A stretch of 64,000 nucleotides of DNA from an uncultured Lachnospiraceae bacterium (GTDB lineage: Bacteria; Bacillota; Clostridia; Lachnospirales; Lachnospiraceae): contig CATLGW010000004.1 of assembly GCA_949948715.1 (NCBI GenBank), positions 1 through 64,000 on the forward strand, written 5' to 3'. The notes under the pieces were generated by a model, which worked only from the letters and a program-made list of their open reading frames with translations, was not told the DNA's origin and did not search any database. This document shows, one piece after another, positions 2 through 62,328 of the stretch (positions are counted from its first letter, which is position 1; each line of letters opens with the position of its first letter). The position numbers and the translations under genes were made by a program.

Positions 2-1330
2 AGCAGCCTAAGAAGTATAGATTTGAGCAGTTTTAATACCGGGAATGTGACAGACATGAGGGAGATGTTTTCTGGTTGCAGTAGCCTGAGTAACATAGAC
101 TTGAGCAGTTTTAATACCGGGAATGTGACAGACATGGGGAGTATGTTCGCTGGTTGCAGCAGCCTGAGTAACATAGACTTGAGCAGTTTTAATACCGGGA
201 ATGTGAAAGATATGGGGAGTATGTTTTCTAGCTGTAAAAGTCTGAGTAGTATAGATTTGAATAGTTTTAATACTGAGAATGTGGTAGATATGGGGGGGAT
301 GTTCTGGGGCTGTAGCGGCTTGATAAGTATAAATTTGAGCAGTTTTAGTACTGAGAATGTAGCAGATATGGAGAGTATGTTCGCTGGTTGCAGTAGCCTG
401 ATTAGTATAGATTTGAGCAGTTTTAACACCGGGAATGTGACAGATATGTGGAGAATGTTTTCTGGTTGTAGCAGCTTGAGTAATATAGACTTGAGCAGTT
501 TTTATACCGGGAATGTAACAAACATGACGTATATGTTTAGAGGGTGCAGCAAACTGAGCGGTATAGATTTGAGCAGTTTTAATACCAGAAATGTGACAGG
601 CATGGGGGAAATGTTTTCTGGTTGCAGTAGCCTGATTAGTATAGATTTGAGCAGTTTTAACACCGGGAATGTGACAGATATGTGGAGAATGTTTTCTGGT
701 TGTAGCAGCCTGAGTAATATAGATTTGAGTAGTTTTAATACTGGGAATGTGACAAACATGAATGAGATATTCTCTGGTTGTAGCAGCCTGAGTAATATAG
801 ATTTGAGTAGTTTTAATACTGGGAATGTGACAAACATGAATGAGATATTCTCTGGCTGTAGCAGCCTGATTAGTATAGATTTGAGCAGTTTTAATACCGA
901 GAATGTGACAGATATGGGGGGAATGTTTTCTGGTTGTAGCAGCCTGAGTAATATAGATTTGAGTAGTTTTAATACCGGGAATGTGCGTGAAATGTGGGCT
1001 ATGTTCTTTGGCTGTAGTAGCCTGAGTGATATAGACTTAAGCAGTTTTAATACCGGGAATGTGACAAATATGGGGTGGATGTTCTCTGGCTGTAGTCGCC
1101 TGAGTAATATAGATTTGAGCAGTTTTAATCTTGGGAATGTGGTGTATATGTATGGGATGTTCGAAGATTGTAGCAGCCTAAGAAGTATAGATTTATGCGG
1201 TTTTAATATTGAAAAAGTAAGAGATATGCGTTGGATGTTCTCTGGCTGCAGTAGCCTGAAAAGTGTAGATTTGAGTAGTTTTGATACTGGAAAAATGGCT
1301 GGCGAATGGGATTGGTTTGATGGTATATTT
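2..1330 (+). repeat. 78-bp coding tandem repeats (DUF285 units)
   Basis: 26-codon period visible through nucleotides ~2-1330; two adjacent units (around 730-890) are almost identical at DNA level. Confidence 0.85.
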
Positions 1331-2689
1331 GATGACTGCATAAATTTAACTTCCATACATACGCCCTGCCATGTGCTCCAGGCAGTCGCCCTTCCCTCCG
1401 TCCCCGGCTATGCCTGGTATCTTCCGGACGGCACCGAGGTGGCGCAGCTTCCGAAAAACCTAAGCGAGAGCGTCCTCCTCACCAGGCGCGCCAAGGAGGG
1501 GGCGCCGGTTATCACCACCACCACGGTGGACCTGAATATGGAGGACGTAATCCGGGTGAAATATGTGCCCTATTCCTACACCGTTCGAACCAACAACCAG
1601 GACAGTGAAAACCAGGTCACCTTCTACGTAGTGGAGGGGAGGCTGGCGGAGGGTCTGCAGATGTACCCCGCCACCGGTGAAATCTACGGCGTTCCCCTGG
1701 AGGCGGGGGAATTCAGGATAACCGTGCGGGCGGATTTCAGCAATCCCAATTATCTCCCCTCCTATGCGGAACTGACCCTGACCGTGCTGGAAAATACGGA
1801 TGAAAACATAGGAACGGCCACGGATCCCGGGTATGAGATCACCCAGCCCGTGTCCGACCTGGATCTGGGCAGCCTGGCGGGAAGCGGCAGCCATACGGTG
1901 GTCTCCAACGGCGAGTATGCGGAATTCGTGGATGTGTACCTGGACGGCAGGAGGCTGTCCAGGGAGACGGAGTACACCTCCGAGGCAGGGAGCACCCGGA
2001 TCACCATAACCGACCAGACCTTTATCGACGCGGGGGAGGGGAGCCACACCCTGGGCATCGAGTTCCGCGCTGAGGAGACGGGGGAGCTGAAGCGTGCGGC
2101 GCAAAATATTGCCGTCACCAGCACGGGAAGCTCCGGGGAAGGCAGCCAGAAACCAGACGACGGCTATCCGGGCAGCAAGCCGGGAAATAATAACGGAGGC
2201 TCAGGAAACGAGACGGAGGGCGGACCGGAGCATACTGGCGGCAGCGGCAATGACGGCGGCGCGGATCCGGGAGTCGGAGTCCAGGCTCAGCCGCCCCGGG
2301 AGGCAGGAGCCTCCACCATCATCTACACGGTTCTGCCCGGAGACAATCTGTGGAAAATCGCAGTGAAGTTTTATGGCTCCGGCGGCTACTGGAGAAAAAT
2401 ATACGAGGGCAACCGGGCTGTTATTACGGATCCCGCCAGAATCTATGCGGGACAGCGCCTCACAATTCTCCTGTCCGGGGAGAACGCAGGAGGCGCGGCC
2501 AAGGCCTCTGGGGCAGACGGGAGAAAAACGCTTTACCGGGTGGCTGCCGGAGACAGTCTATGGAAAATTTCACTGAAGGTCTACGGAAACGGTCGGTTCT
2601 GGGAGAGGCTTTACCGGGCGAACCAAGGCAAGATTTCCAATCCTAAACGGATCTATGCGGGACAGGAAATCTTGATTCCCGAAAGATAA
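2..2689 (+). CDS. BspA-like/DUF285-repeat surface protein with Ig-like module and two C-terminal LysM domains (5'-partial, continues upstream of window)
   Basis: ~17 repeats of a 26-aa unit (SSFNTGNVTDMxxMFSGCSSLSNIDL) typical of DUF285/BspA-type repeats; reading frame open from base 2; C-terminal YTVLPGDNLWKIAVKFYGSG... and YRVAAGDSLWKISLKVYG... LysM motifs; stop at 2689. Confidence 0.9.
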   Translation, partial: SSLRSIDLSSFNTGNVTDMREMFSGCSSLSNIDLSSFNTGNVTDMGSMFAGCSSLSNIDLSSFNTGNVKDMGSMFSSCKSLSSIDLNSFNTENVVDMGGMFWGCSGLISINLSSFSTENVADMESMFAGCSSLISIDLSSFNTGNVTDMWRMFSGCSSLSNIDLSSFYTGNVTNMTYMFRGCSKLSGIDLSSFNTRNVTGMGEMFSGCSSLISIDLSSFNTGNVTDMWRMFSGCSSLSNIDLSSFNTGNVTNMNEIFSGCSSLSNIDLSSFNTGNVTNMNEIFSGCSSLISIDLSSFNTENVTDMGGMFSGCSSLSNIDLSSFNTGNVREMWAMFFGCSSLSDIDLSSFNTGNVTNMGWMFSGCSRLSNIDLSSFNLGNVVYMYGMFEDCSSLRSIDLCGFNIEKVRDMRWMFSGCSSLKSVDLSSFDTGKMAGEWDWFDGIFDDCINLTSIHTPCHVLQAVALPSVPGYAWYLPDGTEVAQLPKNLSESVLLTRRAKEGAPVITTTTVDLNMEDVIRVKYVPYSYTVRTNNQDSENQVTFYVVEGRLAEGLQMYPATGEIYGVPLEAGEFRITVRADFSNPNYLPSYAELTLTVLENTDENIGTATDPGYEITQPVSDLDLGSLAGSGSHTVVSNGEYAEFVDVYLDGRRLSRETEYTSEAGSTRITITDQTFIDAGEGSHTLGIEFRAEETGELKRAAQNIAVTSTGSSGEGSQKPDDGYPGSKPGNNNGGSGNETEGGPEHTGGSGNDGGADPGVGVQAQPPREAGASTIIYTVLPGDNLWKIAVKFYGSGGYWRKIYEGNRAVITDPARIYAGQRLTILLSGENAGGAAKASGADGRKTLYRVAAGDSLWKISLKVYGNGRFWERLYRANQGKISNPKRIYAGQEILIPER

Positions 2690-16139: not shown

Positions 16140-17072
16140 CTAGAAATTCTTCTCCTGCGGTATATTCAGTTCTGTATAAATCAGATGAATCAGCGGTTGG
16201 GAAAAATCATAGTCCTTTTTCCACTGAGGGTTCAGGGCATCCAATATCATACATTGCGCCATTCCCGCCCTGTAATATTTATTTGAGCCTTCCCCGTATT
16301 CGCCGATATTATCGATATAATTGACTTTGAAGCTTTCGGGAGCCAGCCTGTAATATACGCTGGCCTCGATGTAACGGGCTGATCCCTCCACTCTTGTATA
16401 ATATTCTTCAAGAGCTGTTACGTCAATGGAAAGCAGTGCCCTTCTCTCACCGTCCAGCCTCTTATATTCTGCAATATACTCTCTTATTTTGTCAATATCA
16501 TCTGTCTTTACCGCGTTTTCAAGCAGAGCCGCCTGCTGCTCGAATAAACTGACCGCCTGCCGGTTTGTGTCGGCGTGTTCGACAATCAGATTTTCCGCCG
16601 CTTTCCCCTGCCAGAGGGCTTCTATGGGGCCGCGATAATTGGTAAGCTGCCAGCAGTGAAAGGCTTCGTGCCATAGGGTGGCGACACAATCTTCCCTTTC
16701 GTATTCCCAGCTTCCCCCGCTCATCATACCCAGAAACGACGACATTTTTTCAACGGTGGGCGAAAGAACTTCATAATGATCGTCCACGGAGTATGCCGTT
16801 GCGGCTATGGAATTTATGACGGGCCTTCGCCTTTCTATAAGGTAGCCGTTGTCTTTCCACCGGATCACATAATCGTGATCGCCGTCATAAAAGGCCACCG
16901 GGTAATCGGTTATGGCAAAACCCTCAAATCCAAAATTACCGTTTTCCTGCTCCAACGCTACCGCCTGCTCATATATAGCAATATTATCTTTTGAGAGACC
17001 GTAGCTGCCTGTGGCGATAACTCCCGCAGTAAGGGCGGCGCCTAAAAGAGATACAGCTATTTCTTTTTTCAT
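16140..17072 (-). CDS. Exported/membrane-anchored protein with HExxH zinc-protease-like motif
   Basis: MKKEIAVSLLGAALTAGVIATGSYG signal/anchor; CVATLWHEAFHCWQL HExxH; ORF trimmed to ATG at 17072. Confidence 0.7.
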   Translation of the reverse strand: MKKEIAVSLLGAALTAGVIATGSYGLSKDNIAIYEQAVALEQENGNFGFEGFAITDYPVAFYDGDHDYVIRWKDNGYLIERRRPVINSIAATAYSVDDHYEVLSPTVEKMSSFLGMMSGGSWEYEREDCVATLWHEAFHCWQLTNYRGPIEALWQGKAAENLIVEHADTNRQAVSLFEQQAALLENAVKTDDIDKIREYIAEYKRLDGERRALLSIDVTALEEYYTRVEGSARYIEASVYYRLAPESFKVNYIDNIGEYGEGSNKYYRAGMAQCMILDALNPQWKKDYDFSQPLIHLIYTELNIPQEKNF

Positions 17073-17190
17073 AATCGGTTTTCCTTTTTTGAGTTTCGCG
17101 TTTGCCCTTCCGGTACCTTGACAGACAGAACAAGGTCCGTCTGAAAGAACCATCCGGACCTTGTTCGGGCACTGTCCGGGCATCTGCTGT
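17073..17190 (-). promoter_or_regulatory. Structured leader element, divergent copy, upstream of the HExxH protein gene
   Basis: Minus strand reads ACAGCAGATGCCCGGACAGTGCCC...AAGGGCAAACGCGAAACTCAAAAAAGGAAAACCGATT-ATG; 11-bp perfect inner stem AACAAGGTCCG/CGGACCTTGTT. Confidence 0.65.
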
Positions 17191-17206
17191 TAAATTATTA
17201 CATTTC

Positions 17207-17962
17207 TTAGCTGGACTTTCGTTTGAACACAAGAATCAGTACCCCGAATACGTAAGCGCCGAGCAGACCTGTGAGAATGATATGCAGGTCAATCGGTTTT
17301 TCACAGAGCACATTGCCCGCTTCCCTTTGGATTCCGTGAAGGTTTGGAATCACTTTGAGGAAATATTTTATCATTTCTCCGGCAAAACCGCCTATAATGT
17401 CTTTCAGTATGGACAGTAAACCGTGAAAAATTCCCACAAGTGCCGCCGCGGCAGAGACTGCCCCCGATACAGGTCTGGGGAGGATTATGCTGAATGCGCT
17501 TGTCATTGCGCTCACAATCGTAATGTTTATTCCAAGGATCAGATAGGCCGGAATAAGTCTCCACAGCTCCCCCGTCTTGCCGTAAGAAATCATAAAGATA
17601 AGGATTGCAAGAAACAGGATTGCCTCTGATGCCAGTCCCGAAAGAATGTTTGCCACGGCAAGTTCCCCGTGATAGCGATGCTGGGGAATCTTTCTGATCC
17701 ACACAAGATGACTGGTTCTCCGTTCATATTCGTTGGGTATGGTACCCAGACTCATGACAACGGACAGACCGCAGCAGATTGCATTTACGACTGTCAGCAG
17801 AATGGGAGCAAGGGAACTGTAATCGGTAACCGCCTTGCCGTTTATGGTAAGAGACCCTGAGCCTGATCCAAAGGTAAGGAGGATAAGGGCTCCGATCACC
17901 GAGACAATAGTAAACTCTTTTCTCCGTATTTTTTCTTTTAAAGAAGTGAACGCGATAATCAT
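17207..17962 (-). CDS. ABC-2 type permease
   Basis: Six hydrophobic segments, downstream of and 4-bp overlapping the ATPase gene. Confidence 0.8.
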   Translation of the reverse strand: MIIAFTSLKEKIRRKEFTIVSVIGALILLTFGSGSGSLTINGKAVTDYSSLAPILLTVVNAICCGLSVVMSLGTIPNEYERRTSHLVWIRKIPQHRYHGELAVANILSGLASEAILFLAILIFMISYGKTGELWRLIPAYLILGINITIVSAMTSAFSIILPRPVSGAVSAAAALVGIFHGLLSILKDIIGGFAGEMIKYFLKVIPNLHGIQREAGNVLCEKPIDLHIILTGLLGAYVFGVLILVFKRKSS

Positions 17963-28831: not shown

Positions 28832-28922
28832 TATTTACCCGGTCCTCCCGCTCCCCGGCGGATATGCGCGATACCCGCATTTACCATGGGATTCCGGCTA
28901 AGAAACGTCAAGAATTGTTTTT

Positions 28923-29038
28923 ACAGCATCTGCCCGGACAGCGCCCGGGACAGTATCCGGCTATGCCTTTTTGACGGATATTGTTCTGTCGGTATTGGCG
29001 CCGGGAGGGCGGATGCGGAACTAAAAAGGAGAGAAAAA
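28923..29038 (+). promoter_or_regulatory. Structured leader element upstream of RidA-family gene
   Basis: ACAGCATCTGCCCGGACAGCGCCC...GGCGCCGGGAGGGCGGATGCGGAACTAAAAAGGAGAGAAAAA-ATG; homologous to 44223-44340. Confidence 0.75.
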
Positions 29039-29413
29039 ATGATGCAAAAGATTTCCACAAAGAAAGCCCCTGGGGCCATCGGACCCTATTCCCAGGGCAT
29101 TGTCGCAGGAGACTTGCTCTTTGCCTCGGGGCAGATTCCCTTAAATCCTGAAACAGGAGAGGTGGAGGGACGAGATATTGCCGAGCAGGCCCACCGTGCT
29201 ATCAAAAATGTGGGCGCTATCCTTGCGGAGGCGGGTACGGACTATGAAGGGGTGGTGAAGACCACCTGTTTTCTGGCGGACATGAACGACTTTGCCGCTT
29301 TCAACGAAGTGTATGCCCAGTATTTCACCGGGAAACCTGCCAGGAGCTGCGTGGCCGTAAAGACGCTGCCCAAAAATGTGCTTTGTGAGGTGGAGGTGAT
29401 AGCCCGGCTGTAG
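29039..29413 (+). CDS. RidA/YjgF-family enamine/imine deaminase
   Basis: ISTKKAPGAIGPYSQGIVAGDLLFASGQIPLNPETGEV; FLADMNDFAAFNEVYAQYF. Confidence 0.95.
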   Translation: MMQKISTKKAPGAIGPYSQGIVAGDLLFASGQIPLNPETGEVEGRDIAEQAHRAIKNVGAILAEAGTDYEGVVKTTCFLADMNDFAAFNEVYAQYFTGKPARSCVAVKTLPKNVLCEVEVIARL

Positions 29414-42682: not shown

Positions 42683-44098
42683 ATGAAAAAACTGGTGGAG
42701 ATTTTGATTACGCTTTGTACGCTGGCTGCGGGGATATACTTTCTGGTCAACGCAGGCCCTCCGTTTCTAAAAATTCTGGGCGGGGCAAGACCCCTGGGTC
42801 CCGGGGAGGATTTTTCCCAGGCGGAAGGGGAGTACATAAGCTATGAGGTGGCCTATCCTGTGGCTTCCCGGGTGGCGGAGGTCTATTCGGGGGATCAGGA
42901 CCGGGCCAGGACCCTGGGATTCGTGGTATATGACGAGGAGAGGCAGGCGTTTATTTATGTCATTGTCTCGGAGCAGAACAAGGGCGGGTTTGAGAATCTC
43001 ATGTGGAAGCTGCAACTGGCGGCGGAGATGAGGGAGAGCAGGGATATGATGCCCATTCCTGTGGCGGGCACTCTGGAGCCCATGGAGAAAACGTCGGTGG
43101 AGCAAATCTTTAAGGCCCTGGAGGACAGCAAGGTGATGGAGCTCTATTCCTCCTACGGCCAGGGTGTGAGCGGAGATATCTACTTTGGCGATGCCTACGG
43201 TCAGGTCATGGCGCAGATGGGCGAGGCCCTGGAGCAGGGGTGGAAGCAGACGGATTGGTACTATATCGAGGACGGCAGCGTGGAAGGCAGGGAGAACTAC
43301 CATATATGGACCGCTGTTTTTGCCGGAGTGTTCAGCCTTTTCCTCTTTCTCTGCCGCGTGTTCAATATGTTTGCCGGGGGTAAAAGCCCTGCAGGGGAGA
43401 AAGACTTCGGCTCCGGCAGCAGAATGGGGCAGCTTTTGAACGCCCAGAGGGGCTGGGTGGAGGAATGGTGCTCTTACGGCTGGGGTAGAAGCCGCCGCCT
43501 GGCCTATTTGTTTGGGGTGGGCTGTGTGGCGGCGCTGACGGCGGTGGGCCTGTTAGCCGGAGGAACCCTCCCGGATGTGCTGTCATTCCATGTGCCTTTG
43601 GGAGTGCTCATGGGCGAACTGGGCGGGATATTTTTCTGGAGTACCCAGAAGGTAAAGTTTAAGCCGGATTTGATTTTGGTAAATCTGGAGAAGCACATGA
43701 AAAAGGAGCTTCCATCTTCCGCAGATCAGGAGGCGCTGGCCGAGGATATTTTCGGTGCGGGCAGAGAATGGGTGTTTCAGGACCGGGGAAAGGACGATAT
43801 GTACTATGGCGTCGTGGGGAGCCGTTATTGGGTGGTGTTCTCCGGAAACGGCACGGTGTGCGTTATAGATTCCCCGCGTCTTAGAAGGATAGAGACGGAA
43901 AAGAGATCCGGTCAGATGCGGAGCGGGAATGTGAAGGTGAGATATGAATTCTACCTGGCTCAGTTTTATTACGAGAATGCTGTCCCGAAGAAAAGAAGCG
44001 ACAAATCCCTGTCCTTTCCCACGGCCAACGGCTTGGGCCAGTTTATGACGCTGGCGAGAAAGAGGGTGGGCGACGGAGTAGAGATCGTGTCAAAGTGA
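42683..44098 (+). CDS. Uncharacterised membrane protein (N-terminal TM plus two central TMs)
   Basis: 471 aa, RBS aggaggg upstream, hydrophobic segments near N-term and at ~200-320. Confidence 0.75.
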   Translation: MKKLVEILITLCTLAAGIYFLVNAGPPFLKILGGARPLGPGEDFSQAEGEYISYEVAYPVASRVAEVYSGDQDRARTLGFVVYDEERQAFIYVIVSEQNKGGFENLMWKLQLAAEMRESRDMMPIPVAGTLEPMEKTSVEQIFKALEDSKVMELYSSYGQGVSGDIYFGDAYGQVMAQMGEALEQGWKQTDWYYIEDGSVEGRENYHIWTAVFAGVFSLFLFLCRVFNMFAGGKSPAGEKDFGSGSRMGQLLNAQRGWVEEWCSYGWGRSRRLAYLFGVGCVAALTAVGLLAGGTLPDVLSFHVPLGVLMGELGGIFFWSTQKVKFKPDLILVNLEKHMKKELPSSADQEALAEDIFGAGREWVFQDRGKDDMYYGVVGSRYWVVFSGNGTVCVIDSPRLRRIETEKRSGQMRSGNVKVRYEFYLAQFYYENAVPKKRSDKSLSFPTANGLGQFMTLARKRVGDGVEIVSK

Positions 44099-44340
44099 GA
44101 TGCGGAACTAAACTGACAGCATCTGCCCGGACAGTGCCCAGAACACTGTCCGGCAAAGCCATACAGCCCGGACATTGATCTGCCAGAGACGGTGCTGGGA
44201 GGGCAGATGCGGAACTAAACTGACAGCATCTGCCCGGACAGTGCCCAGAACACTGTCCGGCAAAGCCATACAGCCGGACATTGATCTGCCAGAGACGGTG
44301 CTGGGAGGGCAGATGCGGAACTAAAAAAGGAGAGAAAAAA
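44099..44340 (+). repeat. Two tandem copies (107 and 106 bp) of the structured leader element
   Basis: gatgcggaactaaactgacagcatctgcccggacagtgccc... unit at 44099-44205 and 44206-44311, identical apart from one C (cagcccgg vs cagccgg), then gatgcggaactaaaaaaggag. Confidence 0.95.
44223..44340 (+). promoter_or_regulatory. Structured leader element, gene-proximal copy
   Basis: GCATCTGCCC/GGGCAGATGC perfect outer stem, inner stem GAACACTGTCCGG/CCGGACATTGATC, ends at RBS aaaggag and ATG 44341. Confidence 0.8.
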
Positions 44341-44979
44341 ATGGTAAAAAAACTGACTTTTAAATCGTGGTTGAACTCGGGGCTTCTCATTCTTTTTTGT
44401 CTGATTCCCGGTACATGGGCTCTTTTGCGGTACGGCCCTCATGCCCTGGTGGCGCTTTCCGGAGGCGTGCCCTGGCTGAACGAGTCTATGGGCAATATCT
44501 ATGGAATGTCGGCGTTTGGCCTCCTTATGGTGATCATCGGCCTGTTTATTTTGGTAAAGCAGTTCACTTCCTCGGTGAGCAGGCTGGTGAAGCGCTATCT
44601 GACGGAGCACCCGGAGGTTACCATGGAACAGCTCGACAGTGAGTTTGCCGCTGCCCGGAAAATCGAAAATGTGTGGGTCGGCAGGAGGTGGACCTTCAGC
44701 CACCATCTGCGCTTTATTGTGGTGGATAATGAGAATATCGCCTGGGTCCACAGCAGAAGGGAGCGCAACAAAAACGGCACCAGCTATTATCTCTGTCTGG
44801 GAATGGCCGACGGAAAGACGGATGAGGTGAAGATGAGCCACGGAAGTCTCTCGGAGATCATGGAGCTCTATGAGAAGTATCCTCATATTGTGGTGGGGAA
44901 TAACCCGGAATACGAATATCAGTTCAAGCACGACAGGGAAGCTTTTCTGAATATGAAATACCGACAGGGAAAGGACTGA
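44341..44979 (+). CDS. Uncharacterised membrane protein (possibly DUF6709-type)
   Basis: Two TM segments then soluble domain ENVWVGRRWTFSHHLRFIVVDNENIAWVH; ATG 44341. Confidence 0.75.
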   Translation: MVKKLTFKSWLNSGLLILFCLIPGTWALLRYGPHALVALSGGVPWLNESMGNIYGMSAFGLLMVIIGLFILVKQFTSSVSRLVKRYLTEHPEVTMEQLDSEFAAARKIENVWVGRRWTFSHHLRFIVVDNENIAWVHSRRERNKNGTSYYLCLGMADGKTDEVKMSHGSLSEIMELYEKYPHIVVGNNPEYEYQFKHDREAFLNMKYRQGKD

Positions 44980-56191: not shown

Positions 56192-56305
56192 ACAGCATCA
56201 TCCCGAATGGCGCCCATGGAATGACCGGAAGCGAAGCGGCCGGGAATTCCATGCCCGGAGAGGTGCCGGGAGGGAGGATGCGGAACTCAAAATCAGGAGG
56301 CCACT
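56192..56305 (+). promoter_or_regulatory. Structured leader element upstream of GH42 gene
   Basis: ACAGCATCATCCCGAATGGCGCCC...GGTGCCGGGAGGGAGGATGCGGAACTCAAAATCAGGAGGCCACT-ATG; inner stem CATGGAATGACCGG/CCGGGAATTCCATG. Confidence 0.7.
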
Positions 56306-58261
56306 ATGAAATTCGGCGTATGCTATTATCCGGAGCACTGGGACAGGAAGGAGTGGCGGGACCATGCCCGTCTGATGCGGGAGGCGGGCTTTAATACGGC
56401 CAGGCTGGCGGATTTTGCCTGGGGCGTTCTGGAGCCGGAGGAGGGGAGGTATGACTTTTCCCTTCTGGACGAGGCTGTCGCGGTTCTGGGGGAGGAGGGC
56501 CTGGATGTCATCCTCTGTACTCCCACCGCCGGGCCTCCCAAATGGCTGGCGGACAGATATGACATTTTGCAGAATGACCGCTACGGCCGCCCGGCGGGCT
56601 GGGGCTCCCGCAGGGAGGGCTGCGCCAACAAGGCGGATTTTTGCAGGTTCAGCGCTTTGATCACGGATGAAATGGCCAGGCATTATGGGGATCATCCCAA
56701 AGTGGCGGCATGGCAGATCGACAATGAATTCGGCTGCCACGCTTCCGCCAGGTGTTACTGCGAGCAGTGCAGGAGAGCTTTTTCGCGGTGGCTTGCGGAA
56801 AAATACGGTGAGATAGAGAATCTGAACCGGGCCTGGGGGACGGTGTTTTGGAGCCATCAGTATGCCTCCTTTGAGGACGTGATATTGCCGGCGTACAATG
56901 CCTGTGAGCCGGAAAATGCCCAGAGCTGGTCCCATAATCCTTCCCTGGATATGGAATACAGACGGTTTGCCTCTGATTCCTGGGTGAATTACCAGAAAAT
57001 GCAGACGGATATTATCAGGAAATATACGGATCAGCCCGTGACCCACAATATGATGGGACATTTTTCGGATATTGATTACTATGATCTGGCCAGGGGGCTT
57101 GACTTTGTGGCCTGGGATAATTACCCTGACAATCAGTGGGGAGAGTCTGAATATGCGTATGTCTCCATGGCCCATGAGATTATGTACGGGGTAAAAAGAA
57201 AGAATTTCATTGTGGCGGAGCAGCAGTCCGGCCCCTGTGGCTGGGATGTGATGGGAGCCCAGCCGGAGCCGGGGCAGTTAAGGCTCTGGACCTATCAGGC
57301 TCTGGCTCACGGGGCGGAGGGGATACTCTATTTCCGCTTCCGGGCTCTGCCTTACGGTATGGAACAATACTGGTACGGCGTGCTGGACCATGACGGCGTG
57401 CCCCGCAGAAGGTACTATGAGCTGCAGCGCACCGGCAGGGAGCTTGAAAAGCTTACCCCCTACATTGTGGGGAAGCACAGCAGGTATGAGGCGCTGATTG
57501 TGAGAACCTACGACAATGTGTGGGGACATGAGATCAAGAGCCACGTGAAGGGCTTTGACTATCGAAGTCTTCTCTATGAGTATTACAGAGCCAACGCCCG
57601 GCTTAATATACCCACGGCGGTTTCCGTAGGAAATTATGAGGATTACAGGGCGGTCTATATGCCCGCCTACAATATCGTGCACCGCGGGGAGCTGGAGGCC
57701 GTGGCAGAATATGTGAAAGAGGGCGGGACTTTAGTGGTCACCTTCAGAAGCGGCGGCAGGGACCCGGAGAATAATCTCTTTACCGATACGCTGCCCTGCG
57801 CCTTTAGGGAGCTGGCGGGTATAGAGGTGGAGGAATTCGCTCCCCTGCGAAAGCCGGTGGGGGTGGAAGGGCTTGTGCAATGTGCTGCCAGGCTGTGGTG
57901 CGATGTGATAAAGCCTGTCACCGCCCGGGTGCTGTGCACCTATAGGGACTGCTATTTTCAGGGAAAGGCCGCCGTCACAGTCAATGCTTACGGAAAGGGG
58001 AAGGTGTATTATGTGGGCTGCGACCTGGAGGCGGAGGCTCTGGAAGAGCTGGTGCGCCACATCTCCTCTCAGGCGGGGATTGCCGTGACAGAGGCCCCCC
58101 GGGGGGTGGAGATCCTGCGCAGGGAGGACTGCACGGCGGTGCTCAATTACAATGATTACGAGGTGCAGACACCGGTTGCGGGACGGAATCTGCTGACCGG
58201 GGAGACTTTTACGGGAAAACTGGAGGGGTATGGGGCAGTGTTTATAAAGGAGGGCATTTAA
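56306..58261 (+). CDS. Beta-galactosidase, GH42 family
   Basis: FGVCYYPEHWDRKEWRDHARLMREAGFNTARLADFAWGVLEPEEGRYDFSLLD; AWQIDNEFGCHAS; EQQSGPCGW. Confidence 0.96.
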   Translation: MKFGVCYYPEHWDRKEWRDHARLMREAGFNTARLADFAWGVLEPEEGRYDFSLLDEAVAVLGEEGLDVILCTPTAGPPKWLADRYDILQNDRYGRPAGWGSRREGCANKADFCRFSALITDEMARHYGDHPKVAAWQIDNEFGCHASARCYCEQCRRAFSRWLAEKYGEIENLNRAWGTVFWSHQYASFEDVILPAYNACEPENAQSWSHNPSLDMEYRRFASDSWVNYQKMQTDIIRKYTDQPVTHNMMGHFSDIDYYDLARGLDFVAWDNYPDNQWGESEYAYVSMAHEIMYGVKRKNFIVAEQQSGPCGWDVMGAQPEPGQLRLWTYQALAHGAEGILYFRFRALPYGMEQYWYGVLDHDGVPRRRYYELQRTGRELEKLTPYIVGKHSRYEALIVRTYDNVWGHEIKSHVKGFDYRSLLYEYYRANARLNIPTAVSVGNYEDYRAVYMPAYNIVHRGELEAVAEYVKEGGTLVVTFRSGGRDPENNLFTDTLPCAFRELAGIEVEEFAPLRKPVGVEGLVQCAARLWCDVIKPVTARVLCTYRDCYFQGKAAVTVNAYGKGKVYYVGCDLEAEALEELVRHISSQAGIAVTEAPRGVEILRREDCTAVLNYNDYEVQTPVAGRNLLTGETFTGKLEGYGAVFIKEGI

Positions 58262-60169: not shown

Positions 60170-61006
60170 ATGCCCCAGGACAACGTACAGATAGAAAACA
60201 GTATTCGCAAGAGATTTCACAAATCTCTGTTTGGCAGGTTTGCCCGCGCTCTGAACCAATACGAGCTTCTTCGGGAGAACGACAGAGTGGCGGTATGCAT
60301 TTCCGGGGGGAAGGACTCCATGCTGATGGCAAAGCTTTTCCAGGAGCTGAAGCGTCACGATAAGTTTCCTTTCGAGCTGGTGTTTTTGGTGATGGACCCG
60401 GGCTACAGTCCGGCCAACCGGGCGGCTCTGGAGGAAAATGCCGCGCTCATGAATATTCCCCTCACCGTATTTTCGTCGGATATCTTTAACGCTGTGTATG
60501 AAATTGATAAATCGCCCTGTTATCTCTGTGCGAGAATGCGGCGGGGCCATCTCTACAGCCAGGCTAAGAAGCTTGGCTGTAATAAGATTGCCCTGGGCCA
60601 TCACTATGACGATGTGATTGAGACGATCCTGATGGGGATGCTCTATGGGGGACAGGTGCAGACCATGATGCCCAAGCTGCACAGCACGAATTTTCCCGGA
60701 ATGGAACTGATACGCCCCATGTACCTGATCAGGGAGGAGGATATCAGGCGGTGGCGGGATTATAATGACCTGCATTTCCTCCAGTGCGCCTGCCGTTTCA
60801 CGGAGCAGCATACCTTCTGCAAAAGCGACGGCAGCAGCGATTCCAAGCGCATGGAGATCAAGGCTCTGATCGCCCGCCTGAAGGAGACCAATCCCTTTGT
60901 GGAGGGGAATATCTTTAAGAGCGTGGAAAATGTGAATTTAAGCACTGTCATAGCCTACAAGGAGAACGGTGTCAGGCATCATTTTCTGGAGCATTATGAG
61001 GAGTAA
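60170..61006 (+). CDS. TtcA-like tRNA thiolation/PP-loop ATPase family protein
   Basis: RVAVCISGGKDSMLMAKLFQEL PP-loop; CYLCARMRRGHLYSQAKKLGCNKIALGHHYDDVIET. Confidence 0.9.
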   Translation: MPQDNVQIENSIRKRFHKSLFGRFARALNQYELLRENDRVAVCISGGKDSMLMAKLFQELKRHDKFPFELVFLVMDPGYSPANRAALEENAALMNIPLTVFSSDIFNAVYEIDKSPCYLCARMRRGHLYSQAKKLGCNKIALGHHYDDVIETILMGMLYGGQVQTMMPKLHSTNFPGMELIRPMYLIREEDIRRWRDYNDLHFLQCACRFTEQHTFCKSDGSSDSKRMEIKALIARLKETNPFVEGNIFKSVENVNLSTVIAYKENGVRHHFLEHYEE

Positions 61007-62126
61007 GAGGCCTCACAGTGACTCCGTTTACTTCCACGCTGCCGTCCAGCTCGATGACAAGGCAGGGTCTTCCGTTTATATTCCGGGTTTCTATCAGATC
61101 GGTGCGCTCCGGATTGACCCGGATCACCACATCCGGGGTTTTGACCTCAAAGGTGCGGGTGTCCGCCACATTGCTTACCAGGAGCGCCGTATCGCTTCCC
61201 GCCGTCTCGTCGTAGCGGCGGTCAAATTCGTCCATCCTCTCGTTGGACACACCGCTGCTCGCAAACAGTGTCTTCACTTCATTTTTATCCAGGATCAGGG
61301 GTTCGGGCTCCTCCCTGTGTTCCTCCACCATCTCATTTAATTTCTCATGTATATTTTTTACCGTCTCTATATCGCAGGCATCCCCCAGCGTCTCCTCGAT
61401 CAGGGAATGGAAGGTCTCCTTCTGTCCTCCGGCTGACAGAGGCAGGGGGCATCCCAGGAGGGCGTTCACAAAATCCTCCTTAAGCTCCTCGGGATTTTTG
61501 GTGTAATAGAGGAGGCTGTGCAGGTCCGCGCTGCGGTCGTTGAAAGCGGGGAAGAGGAAGGCGGTGGCGGGGGGCTCCACCACCCAGTCCCGTATGCGGT
61601 TGTGGAAGCTGTTTTCCTCGGCGTGATAGCTTAAGCCCGGCTTGCTCAGGTTCACCGGGCAGATACAGGTGAGTATGTACTCATATACTTCGTCGGAGGC
61701 GTCCTCCATCTCCATGCCGTCCCGGGCTTTGCCGGGGATATCGTAGACGTCGTGCACCATGAGGATCAGATAATTGCCCACATACTCGTAAGCTTCGATA
61801 ATCCTGTCATAAAATTCCCCAAGCAGCGCGTCGTCCTTAAGGCCGCTGCTTTTGAGTCTCAGCAAAAATTCCTGGGCGCCTCCCTCGGTCTCGCTCTCCA
61901 GAGGAAACTCCAGATTCAGCATATTCTTTCCGATGGAGCCTGACAGCGCCTTCCTCAGAATCTCAAAATATTTGAACATCTCCTCCTCGGGCAGCGCCAG
62001 AAAGGCCTGCCTGAATTCTGTTTTCTTGTTTTTCTCTCCGTCCACGTAGCAGCCGCAGATGCGGGTGATGGAGCAATTTCTCTGGGTAAAAAGCTTTTTC
62101 AACTCGGTTATATCCTGTTTGATCAT
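60972..62126 (-). CDS. DUF4317-family protein
   Basis: MIKQDITELKKLFTQRNCSITRICGCYVDGEKNKKTEFRQAFLALPEEEMFKYFEILRKALSG. Confidence 0.88.
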   Translation of the reverse strand: MIKQDITELKKLFTQRNCSITRICGCYVDGEKNKKTEFRQAFLALPEEEMFKYFEILRKALSGSIGKNMLNLEFPLESETEGGAQEFLLRLKSSGLKDDALLGEFYDRIIEAYEYVGNYLILMVHDVYDIPGKARDGMEMEDASDEVYEYILTCICPVNLSKPGLSYHAEENSFHNRIRDWVVEPPATAFLFPAFNDRSADLHSLLYYTKNPEELKEDFVNALLGCPLPLSAGGQKETFHSLIEETLGDACDIETVKNIHEKLNEMVEEHREEPEPLILDKNEVKTLFASSGVSNERMDEFDRRYDETAGSDTALLVSNVADTRTFEVKTPDVVIRVNPERTDLIETRNINGRPCLVIELDGSVEVNGVTVRPLTPHNAPENDA

Positions 62127-62143
62127 ATGTTACCTCCTAATTT

Positions 62144-62328
62144 AGTCGCTGCGCGACGGCTCTCCCGGGGAAGTCCCTTCGGCGCATATGTTGAGAGTCA
62201 GCCTTCATGCGCAGGGGAGCGCCTGAAAGCTGCTCTCATGCGCCCTTGGGGCTTCCCTGGGTGTTTTCTGCACATTTTAGCTGCAGTCGCTGCGCGACGG
62301 CACTCTGAAGGGGAAGTCCCTTAGGCGC
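62144..62328. repeat. Direct repeat pair AGTCGCTGCGCGACGGC-n-GGGGAAGTCCCTT(c/a)GGCGC
   Basis: Copies at 62144-62185 and 62285-62328, about 141 bp apart; each contains the palindrome GTCGC-tgc-GCGAC. Confidence 0.85.

Follow-up and report, generated by a model that had tools for sequence, protein, structure and literature searches.

Why does the same long hairpin stand immediately upstream of the start codons of unrelated genes? This question is raised by a 64,000-nucleotide stretch of DNA from an uncultured Lachnospiraceae bacterium, referred to below as the window. A preliminary description of the window reported a shared P1-P2-P3 architecture in five copies at four loci; all these copies are found in their places, and their layout had been described correctly (Table 1). 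The pairing also is as described, except for P1 of the copy at 17 kb, which is partly mismatched; this copy consists of the P1-P2-P3 hairpin followed by GAAACT. The unit, denoted E1, is a hairpin of about 105 nt with the layout ACAG, P1, a 3x3 internal loop (often GGA/GGA), P2, the P3 hairpin, an 8-nt asymmetric loop, P2' and P1', followed on the 3' side by CGGAACT, an A-rich linker, the Shine-Dalgarno sequence (SD) and ATG, with the unit itself ending in CGGAACT-N-TAAA. In the window, the four E1 sites end 4-8 nt before the SD of unrelated genes, with the SD and the ATG at near-fixed distances. A DNA BLAST search with the 44-kb copy as the query retrieved the copies at 28 kb (E = 5.5e-23), 17 kb (3.3e-12) and 56 kb (6.8e-5), so that the copies are related beyond chance by sequence alone. 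Each terminal copy is predicted to fold more stably than its dinucleotide shuffles (z-scores from -2.9 to -6.7). Elsewhere in the window, positions 1-1287 comprise 16.5 tandem 78-bp units inside an open frame (23-2689, forward strand) that apparently encodes a long repeat protein.

Table 1. Copies of the E1 and E2 elements in the window and the associated sequence features
Feature	Positions	Strand	Remarks
5' module	17197-17217	-	Before the 17-kb E1 copy; same kind as the TTCCGGCTAAGAAACGTCAAGAATT module
E1 copy	17087..17190	-	Covariance model E 1.6e-22 (in seed of the model); before the gene for a HEAFH (HExxH) protein, 16140-17072 (-)
SD (AAGGA)	17082..17086	-	5 nt after the GAAACT end of the 17-kb copy; ATG 17072
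5' module TTCCGGCTAAGAAACGTCAAGAATT	28890..28916	+	Same kind as the 5' stem strand of E2
E1 copy	28923..29027	+	In seed; before the RidA gene, 29039-29413; SD 29026-29030; ATG 29039
E1 3'-end remnant AGATGCGGAACTAAACTGA	44098..44116	+	Overlaps the stop codon of the upstream gene, 42683-44098
E1 copy, tandem unit 1	44116..44221	+	Covariance model E 2.8e-25 (outside seed); 99% identical to unit 2
E1 copy, tandem unit 2	44223..44327	+	In seed; fold z -6.7; before the gene for a DUF6709 protein, 44341-44979
SD (AGGAG)	44327..44331	+	4 nt after the GGAACT of tandem unit 2; ATG 44341
E1 copy, divergent P3	56192..56292	+	Covariance model E 2.3e-18 (in seed); before the GH42 beta-galactosidase gene, 56306-58261
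SD of the GH42 gene	56295-56299	+	After the 56-kb E1 copy; ATG 56306
E2 copy	62132..62259	-	E 4.5e-16; fold z -7.0; before the DUF4317 gene, 60972-62126 (-); SD 62134-62138; ATG 62126
Partial E2 unit	62285..62328	-	12 nt downstream of a promoter-like site, TTGCCC-17-TATACT, 62369-62341

A covariance model seeded with 20 E1 copies from the genome that contains the window (2.29 Mb, 67% complete; hereinafter, the source genome) revealed many further copies. The source genome itself carries about 41 genuine copies at about 27 sites, often as tandem arrays of two or three units, and several contigs end inside such arrays. Under strict filters, matches were detected in 23 of the 101 genomes of the genus, and in the six relatives for which the copies were listed exhaustively, their number ranges from 8 to 83 (G064, 83; G021, 43; G139, 36; G065, 35; G134, 29; G141, 8). 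A pattern scan of GTDB r220 returned Lachnospiraceae records together with a few MAGs from the gut, the labels of which say no more than "uncultured bacterium" or "Clostridiaceae". An order-wide scan of 395 genomes from 174 genera, which was insensitive because just 10 candidates per genome were scored, detected no E1 outside the genus. E1 is an element that reaches dozens of copies per genome in mouse-gut Lachnospiraceae; we found no described repeat of this kind from this family in the open-access literature. Given that contigs end inside arrays and that the genomes are mostly MAGs, one could suspect chance similarity of ordinary GC-rich intercistronic hairpins or an artefact of assembly or binning. 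This explanation retains hardly any probability: it is refuted by the cross-genome searches, in which covariance-model E-values go down to 1e-24 outside the seed genome, across many independent assemblies including strain-named records, and the covariation described next also speaks against it.

In the alignment of 144 E1 copies from many genomes, which was fitted with the structure model, 92.5% of the cells are paired and two-sided changes occur in 31 of the 32 pairs, with 947 two-sided change cells compared to 225 in shuffles (0/500). The ordinary MAFFT alignment of 20 copies from the source genome contains two-sided changes in 13 of the 32 pairs (0/500 shuffles), so the compensatory changes inferred originally from the window are real. 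G-U pairs exceed A-C mismatches on the sense strand by 239 to 44 (161 to 43 without the one consensus G-U pair), which favors selection on the sense strand and hence on the RNA, the excess within the source genome alone being small (20 vs 14). Template-switch repair of imperfect palindromes can yield compensatory changes without selection but should also erase the conserved internal loops. Rfam scans of the E1 stretches, as well as those of the second family discussed below, yielded no family at the gathering cut-off, and the E-value scans gave low-scoring unrelated matches only; assignment of E1 to a known Rfam family is thus rejected. Two other identities were considered and discarded, namely, integron attC sites, because the ends of E1 show no R-site cores when inspected by eye, and a mini-ORF, ATG-CGG-AAC-TAA, at the 3' end of E1, which is lost when P1 changes.

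The placement of E1 is strict. Downstream sequence of sufficient length is available for 112 distinct copies; in 102 of these, an SD, a start codon and an open frame come within 12-40 nt of GGAACT, whereas an SD with a start codon is found at 20% (sense) and 6% (antisense) of random positions in the same loci; with a stricter SD, the count is 77 of the 112 copies vs 5.8% of random positions. Eight of the remaining ten copies are inner array units, one is a true case that was missed (L202) and one is a real exception (G000 C36). The element is always in the sense orientation relative to the downstream gene, and for none of the 112 copies does a gene start face the other way from the 5' end of E1. 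At 57 of 104 sites, the distance from GGAACT to the start of the SD is 5-6 nt, and most of the upstream neighbors are genes of the same direction that end a short way before E1. With copies placed strictly before start codons and not at random, and with the outcomes of the Rfam and covariation analyses, the original designation as a structured RNA or mobile 5'UTR family stands. In one divergent intergenic region (L005 / L141), E1 precedes a DJ-1/PfpI-like gene in the source genome and the opposite, CYTH-like gene in G064, each copy being located at the SD of its own gene.

Comparison of orthologous sites reveals that E1 comes and goes. Between prmC and prfA, the element is present in G064, G139, G141, G075 (two units) and G118 (at least two units), reduced to a remnant in G134, and missing in G021, G116 and others. 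An SD is present without E1 both at the empty site in G139 that corresponds to a two-unit site in G064 and upstream of dnaK in G134, indicating that the SD belongs to the gene. The alternative raised in the preliminary description, that of a spreading palindromic repeat that carries an RBS, fits better with regard to the repeat; in both empty-site comparisons, the RBS is native to the gene. In 18 comparisons of orthologous genes, the E1 copies are 51% identical on average, compared to about 50% for random pairs between genomes, although the flanks of these sites are 70-93% identical; most of the tandem neighbors, by contrast, are 82-100% identical. These values imply local amplification and replacement that are much faster than the evolution of the genes, with the layout persisting. 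Given that the shape is kept while the letters change very fast, E1 has the appearance of an mRNA leader module that spreads, one that apparently has not been described before.

E1 copies are tandem or mosaic, some have interior deletions, and in G064 two different genes, pheS and tsf, carry nearly identical copies. The same genes are occupied in several species, with prfA occupied in six records and murD in four, and G064 and G139, with 48 and 27 sampled genes, respectively, share five of these, where about 0.4 would be expected; this recurrence leans towards a function or a strong target preference. A third, short hairpin module (AGAGGTTCTAAAGAACCTC / GAGGATC-GATCCTC) was observed in G064 after GGAAC, either before or after E1 (L143, L146, L156, L157, L163, L170 and L172); at tsf and pheS, it lies on opposite sides of nearly identical E1 copies, as if the order of the units had been permuted.

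The window also contains a second SD-adjacent family, on the minus strand, that initially was overlooked (Table 1). This element, E2, is a structured unit of about 120-180 nt, unrelated to E1, of the form GGTGAAGTCGCGAAGGCGCACGAGAG...CGACTTTAAATAGGAGG, with 36 matches in G065, 21 in G021, 12 in G064 and 4 in the source genome, some of them partial. Covariation is seen in 12 of its 27 predicted pairs (28 copies), and nearly all of the listed full copies adjoin the SD. The two elements form mixed arrays (G065) and, across species, replace each other in one slot at pheT, murD and three other genes; both end in ACTNTAAAT-AGGAGG. Furthermore, the 5' module that precedes several E1 copies of the source genome, including those at 17 and 28 kb, is the 5' stem strand of E2. 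Because of this correspondence, and because the module is also found without a stop codon, the explanation that it reflects a conserved C-terminus of the upstream protein was rejected. The complete genome G006, in which no E1 was detected, contains three copies (L302, L307 and L312) of an element starting with AGTCCAGCTAATAAATGTCAATAGGTAAATGAAAAATA, possibly an IS-like or other repeat with the E2 5' motif.

The observations on turnover would fit purely selfish repeats of the BOX/BIME/MITE type, the transposition of which targets SD-like DNA (AAATAGGAGG) and the structure of which serves transposition via single-stranded DNA hairpins rather than the host. Tandem and mosaic arrays, presence or absence at orthologous sites, interior deletions, the near-identical copies at pheS and tsf and the common end of E1 and E2 are all expected of such repeats, and targeting of the SD alone would account for both the slot and the orientation. 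Nevertheless, we consider a purely selfish nature rather unlikely, in view of the recurrent occupation of the same genes in several species, the sense-strand excess of G-U over A-C and the lack of a Y1 transposase in the richest carriers. The Y1 transposase domain PF01797 was not found in the source genome or in the richest carriers, and a RAYT/TnpA_REP enzyme was rejected as the mobilizer because G000, G064, G065 and G118, genomes with many E1 copies, lack this domain. With the transposase absent from these genomes, it is solely the copy pattern that points to mobility of E1, and any trans-acting machinery that moves the module would have to be of another kind.

A true cis-regulatory RNA class, that is, a riboswitch or a protein- or tRNA-binding leader that gates the translation of a regulon, would in turn account for the conserved structure and internal loops, the near-fixed distance to the SD, the leader position and the fact that many carriers, as judged by reading the proteins, are translation genes. 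Gating of translation had indeed been the initial proposal, but it is not supported. The predicted accessibility of the SD and start codon in static folds (n = 99) is 0.506 with the element, 0.507 when it is deleted and 0.506 when it is shuffled, so no direct translational effect is predicted, and both sequestration and exposure of the SD were rejected. Judged by reading their proteins, the downstream genes, which number more than 100 and include such different products as synthetases and ABC transporters, belong to no common pathway, and no expression platform was seen. Moreover, at several genes E1 is located behind genuine riboswitches: a T-box precedes E1 at alaS and pheS (G064) and precedes both E1 and E2 at leuS of the source genome, a SAM riboswitch precedes E1 at metK, and a ZTP riboswitch does so at an IMP cyclohydrolase-like gene. 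The position between a known leader and the SD implies that E1 lies inside mRNA leaders and is an insertion into these, neither a riboswitch class nor itself the sensor. Together with the unrelated genes and the unchanged accessibility, the sequence turnover at orthologous genes and the exchange with the unrelated E2 argue against a ligand-type switch, and E1 is undetected in most species of the genus. A cis-regulatory class hence appears quite improbable, and the spreading palindromic repeat beside the RBS is the better fit. There seems to be an excess of aminoacyl-tRNA synthetase genes (alaS, gltX, pheS, pheT, asnS, lysS and leuS, as judged by their proteins) among the genes with E1 or E2 (L142, L145, L146 and L169 in G064, L211, and L306, the leuS of the source genome).

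We propose that E1 and E2 are probably SD-adjacent mobile repeats similar to BOX and BIME, which as RNA would most likely be generic leader modules rather than ligand- or tRNA-sensing switches. Under this scenario, E1 would be a small interspersed repeat specialized to a single slot, a few bases 5' of the SD and in the sense orientation. Units would reach the slot, duplicate in tandem, join other modules (E2 and the short hairpin) and be lost or replaced, such that the slot outlasts the sequence that fills it. Transcription would place them at the 3' end of 5' leaders or intercistronic spacers, where the E1 RNA is predicted to form a long self-contained hairpin (P1, the 3x3 internal loop, P2 and P3) that leaves the SD free. 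The module may then affect the processing or stability of the mRNA, or separate the translation of the gene from the upstream RNA, and could be useful to the host rather than merely tolerated, with selection acting on the RNA. A more far-reaching possibility, which we put forward tentatively, is a system kept up by one clade of gut Lachnospiraceae, in which E1, E2 and short hairpins serve as exchangeable RNA modules of conserved structure beside the SD of selected genes. In such a system, selection would maintain the slot, and dedicated machinery would swap and amplify the modules, resulting in a tunable layer of post-transcriptional control distinct from both riboswitches and inert repeats. 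The replacement of E1 and E2 by each other while the genes stay in place offers a natural experiment that bears on whether hairpins derived from repeats turn into components of mRNA leaders, and may point to an SD-targeting insertion mechanism or to a generic leader-insulating RNA part. It also matters for operon regulation in gut bacteria and for the annotation and assembly of their genomes.

As in the general class of BOX, ERIC and BIME elements, the copies of E1 are numerous, palindromic and non-coding and are scattered over unrelated sites, along with arrays and empty sites. In REP/BIME elements, palindromic units form mosaic arrays in the intergenic spaces of an operon, and REPs are short (about 35 nt) and tied to Y1 transposases (TnpA_REP/RAYT); E1 resembles them in the mosaic palindromic arrays but is about 105 nt long and adjoins the downstream gene on its SD side. 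ERIC (127 bp), NEMIS/Correia and RUP elements are imperfect palindromes of about 100-130 bp between genes, some of which alter mRNA decay when transcribed. E1 is similar to these in size and spread, with different sequences; we know of no fixed SD distance or sense-only placement among them, and their sequence conservation is higher than that of E1. With respect to MITEs, P1 of E1 is a terminal palindrome, and inspection by eye revealed no consistent duplication or related IS. T-box, SAM and ZTP leaders (RF00230, RF00162 and RF01750) are structured leaders in 5'UTRs that also hold E1, which is a separate, additional unit. The BOX elements of Streptococcus pneumoniae (boxA-boxBn-boxC) are likewise interspersed, modular, with variable tandem middle units, structured if transcribed, and in one case located beside T-boxes, but are over-represented between convergent genes and possess terminal inverted repeats and target duplications (PMC3049150). 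E1, in contrast, occupies only the sense SD-adjacent slot, shows no clear target duplication, and turns over in sequence while its structure stays; given that its hosts are Lachnospiraceae and unlabelled gut MAGs, the resemblance to BOX is organizational only. Thus, E1 and E2 share the organization of small interspersed structured repeats but differ from these in the strict sense placement at the SD, the exchange within one slot and the conservation of structure without that of sequence: BOX, ERIC and BIME are scattered more loosely between genes, whereas E1 and E2 have one precise address beside the RBS in dozens of genes per genome.
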